Shown here piece by piece: positions 1,507 to 17,348 of a stretch of DNA of 64,000 bases. The position numbers and the translations under genes were made by a program. Positions within the stretch are counted from its first letter, which is position 1; every line of letters begins with the position of its first letter. The notes below the pieces were generated by a model that was given only the letters and a program-made list of their open reading frames with translations, ran no database searches and was not told where the DNA came from. Origin of the DNA: Antennarius striatus (taxonomy: Eukaryota > Chordata > Actinopteri > Lophiiformes > Antennariidae); the NCBI RefSeq assembly GCF_040054535.1, contig NC_090782.1:24168501-24232500 (forward strand). The letters run 5' to 3'.

Positions 1507-4500
1507 CTACTTCCTTTGCAGCTGGTCAGCCAGCTGGTTGTAATCCATCATCCGCAGGATCTCCTCCGCTACCTGCTTGGCCCCCTCGGTCTGGTACTGC
1601 TGGACCATCAGGTCCACAGTCCTGGTTCTGTCGGCTGCCTCCAGTCGGCTGACAGGGATCGGATCTGAATAAAGACTCAGGAGACGCTGGAAGGTTTTTA
1701 CATCATCCAACCCGATGGAGTTCAGGACCTTGAGCAGCAGCAGGGTCACGTCCACCGAGTCTGAGACAGACAGCAGAGACCACACCGCTGGTCAGACTAG
1801 TTTAACCAGAAGATGAAGATGAAGCTGTGTTGACTGTCCTTACCTTCAGTGCTGAGGGATGAAACAGCAACTGAAACAGAAGACACAGGTGCGCTGATGG
1901 AAATGTAATGTCACTGGAGTGTAGTTCAGGTACGTAAAGGTGCTAGCATCATGTGTTTTTGCATTAACACAGATTTTGGGCATTGTCTTGACATTGTCCG
2001 ACTACGTTCATGACCTACCTGTCAGATTGACGAATCCTTGCCAAACAACAGACTCTGAGGGGCCAAACAGCCAGCCAATCAGACGGAGTTGATTCACGTG
2101 GGTCTTCAGGTGCAGCGCCACCGTTCTGACATCGGCGGCCAGATGCACCTGAAACGAGGGCAGGAAGTTGGTGTAGTCGTTGAAGTTCAGGAACTTTGAA
2201 CTCTGAAATAAAACCAACAGAATAAGGTGTTAATGTTTTACCGAAGGGACAAACTGAACATTTTCCTTGCATAATTGAAACTGTCAGAGAAAATACACAA
2301 TAAAATGGCACCTGACCCTAAAAAAATTAAATTTATGATATTCAAAGCCTTGGATAAAAATAACAGGCTAATGGAAAGGTTGAGGAACAAGGGTTTTGTA
2401 TGACTTTCTATGACATGAGAATCACAGAATGATTCTGTACGGCTCACAGGTTGGAATCCATGCCTCCCGAAGTCATCTGAAAAAGTCTCATTTCGTCCCA
2501 ATGAAAGGTGAAGTCATTACTGTAGAATCTAAGCTAAAAGCGTTTGCTTCTTGTTGCTGCAGCTTCAACTACGCAGGTAACCAGGTAAACCAGGTAACGC
2601 TGAGGCAGGCGGAGGTCCAGGGTTCTCATTCGTCTCATCCGGCATGTGTCCCATCTTCAGATGGGGTACATGCTAATTCCTTTTAGCTTAGACGCTAGAG
2701 TGAAGATTGGAGATTGAACCAGGGGTACATTGTTTCTATGTACACTGAAGAGTTGGACCGGAAGCACTTGAACCAATGGGATTAAGCCTGTTTCCATCTG
2801 GACTTTGGTGTTTTGGTGCTTTGGTTCATCTTCTACACACTCATCAGCCACAACAATAACCACTGATGGCAGGGAAGCAGGAGCAACGGGTTTGTAATGA
2901 CCAGAAGTGGTCTAAGGAAGAACAACCAGTGAACCACCAACAACCTCCGGCCACCAACCATCCCAATGCACACATGAGCATCGAAGTGGATCACAGAGGA
3001 AAGGAATGGAGTGGCTTGATGGAACAAGAACAATTAGTTCAAGAGTTGATTTGACTTCCAAAACTCTCCAGATTGAAATCCAGTCCAGCACCTCTGGGAA
3101 GTCCTGGGCAGAAGAGCCCAATCCACAGAGGCCCCACTGCTTCCATCTTCTAGGACCTGCCATAGACATCGTGGTACCAGGTACCACAGCTCACCTTAGA
3201 GGTCTGGAGTTTGTGATGAGTTGCTTTGGTTTGTGGCTGATCGATGTAGAACACATGCACAGAAGAACAAAAACAGGACATGAACTGCGGTTTCCTTGCA
3301 GCCCACCTTGTTCCGTTTTTGCAACACACGACTTCCTGTCACTGTTGAGACTTTTATGTCTACAGTAAACTCTTTCTGATTTCTCAGACATGAAAATACC
3401 AACAGAAACTGGAAGGTTGAGTAATTCTTTGTGCAACAGAACTAGATGCCAACAATTTCCACACGCCGGTCCTTCACAGGACTGAGGACAGCTGTCGTAC
3501 CTCGGGGTGGATTGACACGACGGCCTCCCCGCTCAGTTTGTACGACTGATTTGGAATCAGCTCGCAGTCAGGAATCGACTCCACGTATTCCGCACCAGTC
3601 CGTCGCTTCCACTCCTTCATCACCTGGAGATCACATCACACAATCGGTCCACGATCACTAATCCAACTTCAGTTTAAAATTCCCTTTGAAGGTTTCTCAC
3701 TATAACATTTTAAAATATGTTTTAATTATTCTTAACGGATTGTTTGATATCTATGTACTGAATGAAGGCGCCGGCTGGAACCACAGGAGGAGCTTGAAGA
3801 CATTCGGAGGCAAATTTAATTTTATTCATGAATCTATTAACTTTTTTCTTACTGGTAAAAACCCAAAGGATGAATGAGAGTTGAGTAAACAAGTCCAAAC
3901 TCAAACACATCCCTCAAATTAAAAGAAAAAGTTCATCAATCAAACAAGTTCAGGTATTTGTTTCATTAAGTCAAACGATTTTGAGACTTTAAAGCTCCAG
4001 TTTGCCAGTGGGTGGGGCTTGTTTGCCTACGTTCCCAGTGGGCGGAGCTTGTTTACCTGAGTGAGGCAGATGTTTCTGGGCAGCAGCACAACAAAGAGCA
4101 AGTTATTGCGGGGCTGGTGGAACAGCAGCATGAGACCCTTGATCTTAGTGCTCCACTCCTCCGGCGCCACCAGACCGAAACACGAGAAGCTGGAGATGCT
4201 GATGATCACGTGACCCTCCGTCACCTGACCAGGTGTGATGATGTCCACACTGTTCACAGTGACATGAGCCACAGACAGGGAGTGTCGGCCGCCGTCTGAG
4301 GGGCAGGAAGGAGGAATTTACAGCCCCGTTGATAGACTCGGCGCAAATCAACAAGCTAATCACCAAGCTAGGTCACTTACCTGCCAGGAGTTGACAGTGT
4401 GGTAGGTGGAGTCGGTGGAAACTTCCTGTTAGCAGAGTGAACCTGAACAATGGTCCAGCAGGCCTCAGACCTTTAGAGGACAGGAAGCCAACATCCCAGG

Positions 4501-6259
4501 GAATGATCTGGTAGACCACGTCACCAACGCCCTCCAACAGGAGACCGGTGAGACTGCAGCGGAAAACACCCATCTGCTGGCAACGCAACCTACAGCAACA
4601 ACATCACCTGAATCACCCGGAGGCAAGACCGCCCTTGTTCCTTTTGCACACGTCTGCGCTACGTACGAAAGCTACAAAACAACACCTGGATAAAAGCAGC
4701 AAACCAGGGAGGTGGCAGGACAAGACACAGGAACAGAAGTCTAAGTCTAAGACTAAGACTAAGACAAGGTTTGAGGACGAGGCTCTGAATAAGAAGGGCT
4801 ACTGAGTTAGCTTAATTACCTCGTTGATGCTAGAACAAACAATGCACACCTTTCTCCTCGGTTATTCCCAACAAAGCTAAGTCTGAGGATCCCTGATTAT
4901 ATTCTGCTCTGGTTCTCTATAGAACAACGACAGGAAGAAGTAAACGACCCGTTACCTGAACATGTGGCAGTCCTCAAACACTTCAGGGGTCAGCTCAACC
5001 TAAAATGATCAAACAGGTTATAACTCAATAACCAATCATCTGTCAGATTTATGAGTGACAACACAATCTGTTTGATGTTGATACCGCTGGTGTGTCGGCG
5101 GACTCTTCTCTGATGTCAGGCAACCTCTGTGATGTCACTGCTTGTCCTGGCAGACAGAAACCTTGAACATGATGACATCACAAGGACAGGTTTAGTTTAG
5201 CACGGATACCAAAAACATGAGGTAGCTGTTAGCCTAGCCTGGCACCAAGACAAGAAGCAGAAGGGAACTTATAGCTTAGCAGGGTTTTGTGTGGACTTAC
5301 CAATTGTTGGGACGATCTTCTGCATGACGTTAACTGCATGGCAATCCAATTGTTTTCCCAGAAGTCTCAGTGTCACTGATGTCTCTGAGTGCTGCAGTGG
5401 TTCTTCACCAGTAGGAGGGAGATTTCCTCCACTCATGTGATCACTGACCAACCACTGGAAATATTTGAATTCATCCAAGACTAGAAAGTCCAAAATGTCT
5501 GTTGAGACAGGCGGTCCTGAAGATTCTAATTCAGATAGAAACTGGATAAAAAAAGTGACAAATGTTCAACGAGATTTCAGTGGATGGCAAGGAGCTAAAA
5601 CAACATCAAATACAAACCTCCGTGTTCAGATCGTCTTGAAGCTCTTGTAGGAAGAATGGATCTGATTGGCTGAGGGCCTTGTAGAACGCAATGTGAGCTT
5701 TGTTCCCTTTTCCTGGGAGCATATCAACCAGCGCCCGGTTCTTATCCATCTGGACTCCACAGATGCTGATGACTTCCTTCTTTGCTGTGTTCAGGAACCC
5801 TTGATCTTGCAGGGCGTCCATAACAAGGTCAACTGACCAAGTTCTGGTGATCAGCTTCCGGCGCCCAATTTTCACAATGTCTGGGTAAGGTTCAGGAACT
5901 GATCTAGGAGTCTGCAGGTCCAGGTGGTGGTGGTGGTGGATGACCCCGTCATCTATGCCAGTCAGCGTCAGGGCAGCATCTAATATGGCCTGTGCCTCCT
6001 CATCGTGGTAACACTTAAGCATGATTTTGGCAGTGCTGTTGGCATCAGCGTACCAGAGCCAGTGTAGGGGGATGGGAGGGGAACCCAGCAGAAGGTGCTG
6101 ACTGAGACACCACTGGACCCTCCACAGGTCCACCTTCTGCAGCGTCAACAACTTTGACAGTAGACGGGTGTTCTGCACCGACTCCTTTTTGCCCTCCCAG
6201 GTGTTGGTGCTTGCAGATGTCCTTGTAAACTCCTGAAGAACTGTGAACACATTACCCAT
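1507..6259 (-). CDS. PYD-like / CARD / PYD-like / FIIND / PYD protein (CARD8/NLRP1-related, no NACHT)
   Basis: Ten exons on the minus strand: 6259-5618, 5541-5301, 5146-5085, 4999-4956, 4589-4381, 4295-4057, 3623-3501, 2202-2019, 1870-1844, 1760-1507. All junctions are GT-AG and the phases close to 674 codons plus TAG. Residues 31-103 resemble a PYD (PPIP core). Residues 126-209 are a CARD (DKNRALVDMLPGKG, then FYKALSQSDPFFLQEL). Residues 226-293 are another diverged PYD-like fold (LDEFKYFQWLV). Residues about 316-436 match ZU5, with FRCSLTGLL and LRPAGPLF. Residues 437-582 match UPA, with LLFVVLLPRNICL. Residues 592-674 are a typical fish PYD (DPIPVSRLEAADRTRTVDLM). His410 and the SF|S site (F436|S437) match the autolytic dyad. 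An in-frame TGA two codons before ATG 6259 supports this start. Likely role is inflammasome sensing or bridging in the cytosol; that is inference. A split into two genes cannot be fully excluded. Confidence 0.82.
4057..4295 (-). other. FIIND autoproteolysis exon (ZU5 end, SF|S site, UPA start)
   Basis: This exon of the FIIND gene carries residues 400-479. It contains VAH at 408-410 and ISSFSCFGL around 433-441. In CARD8 the catalytic histidine and the cleaved serine are His270 and Ser297. The same 27-residue step separates His410 and Ser437 here. Cleavage between Phe436 and Ser437 would leave a 238-residue C-terminal UPA-PYD piece held non-covalently by the N-terminal part. Confidence 0.8.
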
Positions 6260-9200
6260 GATTCAGTCTGTCAGGATTTACTTCCCTCTGATGTGACTGA
6301 CAGTATGGAAGGAAGAGCAAGAGAAACAAAAAACAATTCAAATTATTGACGTCAAAAAGAAGACGTACAGGTTAAAAAGATGATGATGAAGCTCATGAGA
6401 GATGTCTTCATGAAACCATCAACACCTGAAAACAGCTGGAAAGGCAAGATACACCACCTTGAGGTTCTGGACCAGACTCCACCTCCAGGTTCTGGACCAG
6501 ATTTCACCTTGAGGTTCTGGACCAGACTTCACCTGCAAGTTCTATACCAGGACCACCTACAGGTTCTGGAGTAGGACCACTTATTGGTTCTGGACTAGGG
6601 CCACCTACAGTTTCTAGACCAGACTGACTAATTGCCACGACAACACACATCAAATACCTCCACAAAGTAAAAGCCTTCACATCAGACTGATTAACATGTG
6701 TAGTGTTTGTTACTGTGTTATAAACACTATTGCTGGAATCCCCTTTCTACTTCACCTACACACACATTCCTGTACTTAGTACAAAACGAGGCCGGCACCT
6801 TTTTCTGCGGTTGAACTTGGGACCACCTACCTTAGGTGAGACATTTGTGCCATGTCCTGATCTCATTACATCGGTTCACACCCACCTATTCACACCTCGT
6901 CTCACACACTCATACTGCTGTCTGTCGGATGTGCATGTGATAATAATGCAAATTGCTTAATTAGTAATGTTTAATCTTCATCATAACTATTAATCATTCC
7001 TTTAATCACAACCAAATTCACTTTACATTATTAGAAATAGTTGTTGCACTGTAGGATTATTAACTTCATAAATTATACGATTAATTTTTTTCAGTAATTG
7101 TATTTTAAGAACCATTTAAAAACCTCCAACAGACCCAACACGACACTGAAGGTCAGGAGGTCTTAGATATGTTTCAAGTATCTGAAGCGAAAGTCCTGAA
7201 AAGTGCAGTCAGCATTTTTACTTTTCTTGTTCAACACTCAACCGTTTTTGTTCGGTAACTTCTTCCATTTTTGAAACGATTTTCAGAAAATTCATACATT
7301 GCTCTCGATAAATTATGGACAGAATCAAGTTGTTTCTTACCGGCGTGAAGGGGAAGAGGAGGAAGTTCCTCTGTCCTGATATTCTTGTCGTTTGAATTTT
7401 AATCAGACGTCCAGTCCACTTCATCAACCAGAGGCCAACTTGGTATCTGATTGGTTGTTAGATTGACCCTATAAGGTTTGAATCGGCTGCTGAGGTTTGA
7501 GGTTTTGAGACGTTCTAAGAAACTTTCCAGGCTGAGGTGAACAAAACGAGAGCAGGTCGACCGCGGTGGCGATCGAATGTCAACAAATTGGTGCACCGTT
7601 CAAAAAGAAATGGTTCGTCTATATTTCTCGTTCAGTCTGAACTTACTGGACTTGCAGGTTGAAATCCTCTCCTGGACCAGAGTCTGGATCAGTAACTCTA
7701 CTCCTAATGTCCCATGCCAGGTGGGCCATGCCCTCTGATGACACATTAGGGATCCTTTCCCAATAAAAAAAAAGGTACCAGGCTGGTTCTTCAAACCGGC
7801 AACGTGTTTGGAAGAAATGGTTGGATATGAACATGAACCACAACCGACACAAGAGAAGAGGAGTTTAATAGTGATGAAGGAATCAAAACATGAGACACAT
7901 TCAACTGTGAAACCTTTCTGTGATTGGACGAGAGCCGGCAACCCAGACGGTCCTGAGTCGTAGCGCGTGGCAGCTCGGTCACAGCGTTAACGGGTCAGGG
8001 TTCAAACTGGGCCGTCGTCCTCTTTGAGACCAGATGGAAGCGGTTTGGTTCCAAGAGAAAACGCCGGGACTTTCCGTCTCTGGTTTGACGCCACCGCGTC
8101 TGATCGACCGCATCACAACGGAAAGTTTTAGTTTGCGAAACTGATGTTAGAAAAAAAAATGTCTAAAGACGCTCGTTCACGTTTCGCATTGAAGCCCCGC
8201 CCCTCCACCGTCATAATCAGTCCTCAGTTCACAGAAGATTTCCTCCTGAGGTCTCCGTGGCATTCGCCCGACCCGACAAAAAAAGAGAGGCGTTCAGGCA
8301 GGTTGCTGTGGTTTTACTGGACAGTTAAATACAATTTGACGATCCACTAATGAGGCTACAGTCATCCAGCCGAGGCACGAAGAACAAACCCACCCCCCAC
8401 CCCACCCCCGATCCCAGTCTGACGCCGACGCCGCATTCCAGGCTCCGCCTTCTTACCGGAAGGATGAGGCGTCCGACCACCTCGTGACGCGTTCAGGTTC
8501 ACGTGTCGACATCGATGCTGTTGGGTTTGAAATCGTCTCCGCTGGACGTCGACCCCGACGGGGGGGAGAGCGTCGACGTCTCCAGAACCGGAGGCGCACC
8601 TGAACGCATCACAGCGGCTGGAGGCGGAGCCCGACGTGTCGCACGGCCCCTCGTCATATTGCACAACCGATTAGCTCTCCGGAGTGTCCCACGGACGAGC
8701 TGAGGATTATTGATAAGGCATCCGTTCTGACGGGAGGTCCTGATCGATCGGCCCGACCGCAGCGACGCTCTACAACAACTTCCTGTTCTCTACCAGTCTT
8801 TTCTTCAAAATAAAAGCAGATGGAAAACAGAAACCAACACGGAAAGCTGGTGTTGGGCTGATCGTCTACTGATCAATAACTCATCGATAATTTGTTACCG
8901 GGGTCCATGAGGACGAGACGCAACAGTCTGAATCGCGTTCCGAGGATGAGCGAGGCCCGTTGTCACACAGCAGGGTTCTGGCCCGGGTTTCCTCCTCCAG
9001 CGTCAAGATGAACTAACAGAACCGTTCAGCTCTGGTCCCCCCCTCCCTCCGCGGCCAACTCTACCAGTCCAATCCGTAAACCAGTGACTCATTCTTACTG
9101 GTACGTGTGAAGCAGACCGCTCTGGTTCTGATCCGGTTCTGTTAATCTGTTAATATTTAATTTGAGGAATCTAAAACAGGCCTCAAGAAATCATCCCATA

Positions 9201-9356: not shown

Positions 9357-17348
<7,992 letters not shown>

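Follow-up and report, generated by a model that had tools for sequence, protein, structure and literature searches.

We describe a FIIND protein of the striated frogfish Antennarius striatus (percomorph, Lophiiformes) that ends in a PYD and is encoded on the minus strand of the window, the 64,000-nucleotide stretch C7:24168501-24232500 of its 548 Mb genome. Read from its sequence, the protein has the domain order PYD-CARD-PYD-ZU5-UPA-PYD, and the PYD-ended FIIND (ZU5-UPA) layout is that of a conserved family recurring in many spiny-rayed fishes. The gene structure, the domains, the conservation of the cleavage residues, and the ASC-like and CARD-caspase genes of the same genome lead us to favor, with moderate confidence, a self-cleaving NLRP1/CARD8-like sensor that would signal through a PYD.

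In the ten-exon, 674-residue model of an earlier sequence-only reading, Pfam matched FIIND at residues 326-444 (2.6e-32; 111.7 bits against a cut-off of 25.8) and UPA-FIIND at residues 451-556 (1.2e-17; 65 bits against 27), and the best PYRIN stretch was residues 599-669. The exon 10 peptide alone matched PYRIN at 4.7e-14 and gave no CARD match in Pfam. The deposited frogfish protein P0001 also has the nine-residue linker exon (1870-1844) and the same PYD end, so that the ZU5, UPA, linker and terminal PYD proposed by that reading are all borne out; its description holds for the second half of the protein and had omitted the N-terminal PYD, the CARD and a degenerate PYD. Exon 1 encodes a CARD (5.5e-15) and a weakly matching first PYD (7.3e-5, its 23.3 bits only just over the cut-off, 22.9), and the PYD-like stretch of exon 2 (E 0.22) is below the Pfam cut-off. 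In hand-picked relatives, four for each domain, the first PYD was matched at 6e-8 to 2e-13 and the middle PYD at 2e-8 to 7e-12; judged by its sequence, the frogfish middle PYD is decayed. The N-terminal PYD has the lowest conservation of the three (0.505), and the C-terminal PYD is conserved across the family alignment. PYRIN was the C-terminal domain in all 20 chosen family C-termini, and the 37 PDB sequences matched by a profile of family C-termini all carry a PYD. Pfam found no Death domain in the frogfish model or in the 20 C-termini, DED was weakly matched in five of the 20 (best 0.019), and the model contained no NACHT or LRR match before the FIIND and no match to a nucleotide-binding or ligand domain. 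NCBIfam had no family for P0002 or P0047. VIA-align superposed the ASC PYD on the last frogfish domain and told little about the first and middle PYDs, and Foldseek aligned full-length ASC (2kn6) with the model over 196 columns (E 1.5e-3, root-mean-square deviation 16.3), in a region that we infer to be the N-terminal half.

Self-cleavage of CARD8 needs S297, H252, and H270, according to passages of D'Osualdo et al. (PMC3210808), and by alignment the required residues are kept in the frogfish gene and its family. F-S was present in all 30 acanthomorph rows with letters at the site, V-x-H in 31 of 31, and the LPH histidine motif was invariant in the 34 rows of alignment A3. The intact residues support the earlier proposal that the freed piece would be UPA-PYD. 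Seven salmonid rows read F-C rather than F-S (P0047, P0049, P0050, P0054, P0068, P0069, and P0073), where a cysteine may stand in for the serine nucleophile, and the FIIND-CARD protein P0039 reads F-Y at the cleavage site.

Relatives were collected by word-based protein searches, and the family counts are those among the matches listed; a fish missing from them, zebrafish included, is not thereby a fish that lacks the gene. The frogfish query listed 44 proteins, 29 belonging to the family (P0001-P0029) and 15 being FIIND proteins with other layouts (P0030-P0044), and a further search added P0045 (Myripristis) and P0046 (Lampris), giving at least 31 family proteins. Antennarius and Polymixia are acanthomorphs by taxonomy record, and we take the remaining source species to be acanthomorph fishes as well. 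A PYD match of more than 60 residues follows the UPA in 26 of the 31 proteins (Pfam); in P0013 this PYD runs into a divergent tail. The acanthomorph family formed one clade in both FIIND-UPA trees (100/100). Thirty of its members are named uncharacterized or hypothetical and one, P0019, is named CARD8; sea bass, sea bream, tilapia, and yellow croaker are farmed fishes represented among them. With a salmonid query, 37 proteins were listed, comprising 21 salmonid FIIND-UPA proteins with a PYD end and seven with a CARD end (isoforms included), five without an end domain, the unclear P0066, P0025 from an acanthomorph, and two PYD-bearing caspase entries from pike. No internal CARD was matched in any of the 21 PYD-ended salmonid proteins. 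For one salmonid protein, P0078 (Salvelinus namaycush), precomputed Pfam annotation lists PRY/SPRY (B30.2) together with FIIND, UPA, and PYD, and the B30.2 domains presumably lie N-terminal to the FIIND because the latter begins at residue 529.

The gene occupies 6259-1507 of the window in ten exons with GT/AG borders, consistent phases, one ATG, and one stop (Table 1), as the sequence-only reading had proposed; one border of that model, the exon 3 start at 5146, is probably to be moved to 5161, giving 679 residues, because the five extra residues are kept in P0001 and relatives. The acceptor at 5146 looks stronger than that at 5161, and both may be in use. P0001 begins within exon 1 and has a 14-residue insert between UPA exons that is found in none of the 28 other rows of alignment A1; in the UPA insert and the protein start, the ten-exon model fits the relatives better than P0001 does. 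The frogfish DNA encodes an MGN start (6259-6245), which is shared by 16 of the 29 rows of A1. N-myristoylation of this start is possible from its sequence, but Lys is at position 6 in eight of the 16 MGN-starting rows. A 25-base tandem repeat (6453-6622; seven copies, 73% matches) lies just 5' of the start-codon exon.

Table 1. Exons of the frogfish PYD-ended FIIND gene, in window coordinates.
Feature	Coordinates	Strand	Basis
Exon 1: ATG, PYD (~6166-5990), CARD (~5872-5633)	5618..6259	-	Pfam; relatives
Exon 2: degenerate PYD (~5496-5311)	5301..5541	-	Pfam match below cut-off (E 0.22); clear in four relatives
Exon 3: linker; start 5161 (P0001, relatives) or 5146 (sequence-only reading)	5085..5161	-	
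Exon 4: ZU5 start	4956..4999	-	exon borders, Pfam
Exon 5: ZU5, LPH histidine 4399-4397	4381..4589	-	alignment; CARD8 His-252 need
Exon 6: ZU5 end, VAH histidine 4266-4264, predicted SF-S cleavage 4186/4185, UPA start	4057..4295	-	
Exon 7: UPA	3501..3623	-	exon borders, Pfam
Exon 8: UPA end, phase-1 donor placed as in C20 FIIND-CARD gene (by eye)	2019..2202	-	
Exon 9: nine-residue linker	1844..1870	-	exon borders, P0001 alignment
Exon 10: C-terminal PYD (~1737-1525), stop	1507..1760	-	Pfam; relatives

Both FIIND domains over their cut-offs, the F-S site, and the two histidines place the protein in the FIIND family. It shares with NLRP1 and CARD8 the ZU5-UPA FIIND, the cleavage residues, the fold, and a death-fold domain directly after the UPA, but differs from them in having a CARD before the FIIND, in the lack of any NACHT or LRR in the model, such as precede the FIIND of NLRP1 proper, and in having PYRIN as its last domain where NLRP1 and CARD8 proper have a CARD. 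ASC (PYCARD) likewise has a PYD followed by a CARD, as in the frogfish N-terminal piece, but it consists of PYD-CARD only and has no FIIND, and the internal CARD of the frogfish protein groups apart from the ASC-like CARD. The ZU5-UPA-Death proteins UNC5, PIDD, and ankyrin are excluded by the PYRIN domain and the absence of a Death match after the UPA. Passages on zebrafish Gbp1/3/4 (PMC6721725, PMC4932187) describe GBP-FIIND-CARD proteins, which resemble the frogfish protein in combining a FIIND with a death-fold end but have a GTPase front and a CARD end; Gbp4 requires Asc. A non-CARD death fold with a FIIND is also found in the FIIND and DED proteins of an alignment legend in D'Osualdo 2011 (PMC3210808), although there the domain is DED and the species are the mammals of that alignment. 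Salmonid FIIND-UPA-PYD proteins such as P0047 and P0078 have the PYD after FIIND-UPA, as in frogfish; unlike it, they have no matched internal CARD, P0047 and P0049 read F-C, and P0078 has B30.2.

A single origin of PYD-ended FIIND proteins was rejected: in a 72-row FIIND-UPA tree (81 rows less nine partial or isoform rows, with seven of the 72 unlabeled), one PYD clade had an approximately unbiased test p of 8.6e-5. That tree needs four changes between PYD and CARD ends, and its well-supported branches alone force two. An earlier tree of 48 rows, with fewer salmonids, had not revealed this; there a single branch (99/91) set off the 31 acanthomorph rows together with one salmonid. Ends were labeled by group, so that P0019, P0022, P0023, P0029, and P0027 were taken as PYD-ended in both trees, and P0038, P0041, P0043, and P0044, in which no CARD was matched, were taken as CARD-ended in the 48-row tree. 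Since the tree rejects a single PYD-ended clade, CARD and PYD ends have probably been exchanged more than once in these sequences, although in salmonid arrays the same pattern could arise by gene conversion. On C20 the frogfish has another gene with FIIND exons, which also contains a CARD exon and an LRR-like frame whose LRR match is below the cut-off; read by eye, its UPA exon closes with a phase-1 donor positioned like that of exon 8, and the CARD exon comes next, where the present gene has its linker and PYD exons. The internal CARD of the family (30 rows) was sister to the C-terminal CARDs of seven salmonid FIIND-CARD proteins (96/84, 86 columns), and the frogfish ASC-like CARD fell outside this grouping. 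This CARD tree, which has long frogfish branches, was built without P0020, P0054, and P0069 and from 13 of the 21 frogfish CARD matches, six short ones, that of the gene itself, and one with a stop being excluded; within those limits it does not favor a derivation of the N-terminal half from ASC. The grouping of the internal CARD with salmonid FIIND-CARD ends therefore suggests a fusion of tandem genes. The simplest story for these sequences, not a proven one, is that a tandem PYD-FIIND-CARD and PYD-FIIND-PYD pair fused and the first FIIND was lost.

A six-frame search of the frogfish genome, whose counts are lower bounds and which may miss diverged exons, gave at least 11 PYD matches and at least 30 caspase exon matches. 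On C9, a PYD exon and, 2 kb downstream in the same orientation, a CARD exon look by sequence like ASC (the ASC-like gene), and on C6 a caspase exon is immediately preceded by a CARD (CARD-caspase). PYDs on C16 (Pfam) and C22 (by eye) lie beside NACHT frames. Two more PYD exons are found beside the ASC-like gene (C9:20784330-20792256, L049 and L050), their PYDs similar by eye, and they are possible PYD-only paralogs.

The sensor mechanism that we favor consists of predicted steps of cleavage, binding, release, seeding, and outcome. The FIIND would cut itself at SF-S, and the N-terminal piece (PYD-CARD-PYD-ZU5) would remain bound and keep UPA-PYD silent. Once that piece is degraded or displaced, the UPA would gather PYDs into clusters able to seed ASC PYD filaments, and the ASC CARD would then recruit the CARD-caspase. 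Some observations weigh against such a sensor. P0019, P0022, P0023, and P0029 lack the last PYD, P0027 has a partial one, and P0020 continues past its PYD for ~130 residues, in which a CARD is partly matched; these extended and partial models make the sensor slightly less likely and a wrong or silent last exon slightly likelier. In addition, the two-proline UPA-UPA loop that passages of PMC8081665 describe in NLRP1 was not evident in the family in our own reading of the CARD8 alignment, so that UPA clustering may differ.

The sequence-only reading had named two targets for UPA-PYD, ASC and caspases with N-terminal PYDs, such as are reported for zebrafish in passages of PMC9978379 and PMC4932187. 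The ASC-like gene on C9 is in keeping with the former. For the latter, no frogfish PYD match (of 11) has a caspase exon match (of 30) within 2 Mb, the closest pair on one contig being ~2 Mb apart, and because no PYD match is near a caspase match, frogfish UPA-PYD would most likely act via ASC rather than directly. Direct action on a PYD-caspase without ASC, as the zebrafish caspases might suggest, is improbable to our minds even though the sole non-FIIND matches listed for the salmonid UPA-PYD query were the pike caspases P0082 and P0083, which carry a PYD (53% identity over 26% of the query); the six-frame search may have missed exons. Still less probable is that exon 10 comes from another gene or that the gene is silent. 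The gene was read from DNA only, and four of the 31 models stop short of the PYD and a fifth ends partway through it, but the PYD after UPA in 26 acanthomorph models from many species, its conservation, and the linker exon and PYD of P0001 all argue for a genuine end.

A brake on signaling, in which UPA-PYD or the whole protein would cap ASC or caspase filaments in the manner of PYD-only and CARD-only proteins, is an unlikely alternative. Mammals have PYD-only and CARD-only regulators. Three PYD or PYD-like domains and one CARD, the middle PYD degenerate, and neither a nucleotide-binding nor a ligand domain matched in the model would suit such a role, but the family strictly keeps the FIIND cleavage residues, which a plain decoy would not need, and in the known cases covered by the literature passages the UPA promotes filaments. 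Rather less probable still is an N-terminal PYD-CARD-PYD that serves as an active ASC-like bridge, its FIIND-PYD end merely regulating it. A PYD and then a CARD within one exon and the Foldseek alignment of ASC, probably over the N-terminal half, are consistent with this; opposed to it are the placement of the ASC PYD on the last domain by VIA-align, the grouping of the internal CARD away from the ASC-like CARD (86 columns), and the low conservation of the N-terminal PYD. A further reading, possible but doubtful, is a new type of guard in acanthomorph fishes, whose PYD-CARD, of FIIND-CARD origin, and second PYD would serve as bait. Its N-terminal half would resemble the inflammasome parts that pathogens attack, and if the bait were destroyed or cut, the freed UPA-PYD would reassemble the inflammasome, starting from the PYD; teleosts would have arrived at such a guard by swapping the last exon (CARD/PYD) after the shared phase-1 intron and by fusing neighboring FIIND genes.

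The proposed TMEM259 neighbor is present, with a membralin exon at 10672-11088 of the window on the same strand (3.3e-38). About 92 kb away, C7:24072233-24077851 (L051) has two SAM matches, a PYD (1.7e-16), and a 1219-residue frame without a Pfam match; we presume it to be SAMD9-type with a PYD. At C6:8759150-8761776 (L010 258-605 and 2112-2477), FIIND and UPA matches are followed by a Death frame (1.6e-7), and we infer that they belong to one gene, a third FIIND-like gene of the frogfish.

The suggestion that this domain order may be undescribed stands in part. No description of a FIIND followed by a PYD was found in the passages of open-licence literature searched, including those on FIIND, C-terminal PYD, and fish CARD8-like topics, and most relatives are unnamed; salmonids, however, have several FIIND-PYD proteins. 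The fish FIIND proteins named in those passages are FIIND-CARD only, and a passage of PMC10565642 says that zebrafish Nlrp1 lacks a C-terminal PYD, where N-terminal is apparently meant. The frogfish gene and its relatives suggest that the FIIND-UPA release device need not be coupled to a CARD. If the UPA can launch either a CARD or a PYD, the device would be a general trigger for death-fold filaments, for which nature has seemingly made the CARD/PYD swap more than once. The family would offer a ready test case for the question whether clustering by the UPA is enough to activate the tail, and it adds an unnamed family of putative sensors in fishes, farmed species included.
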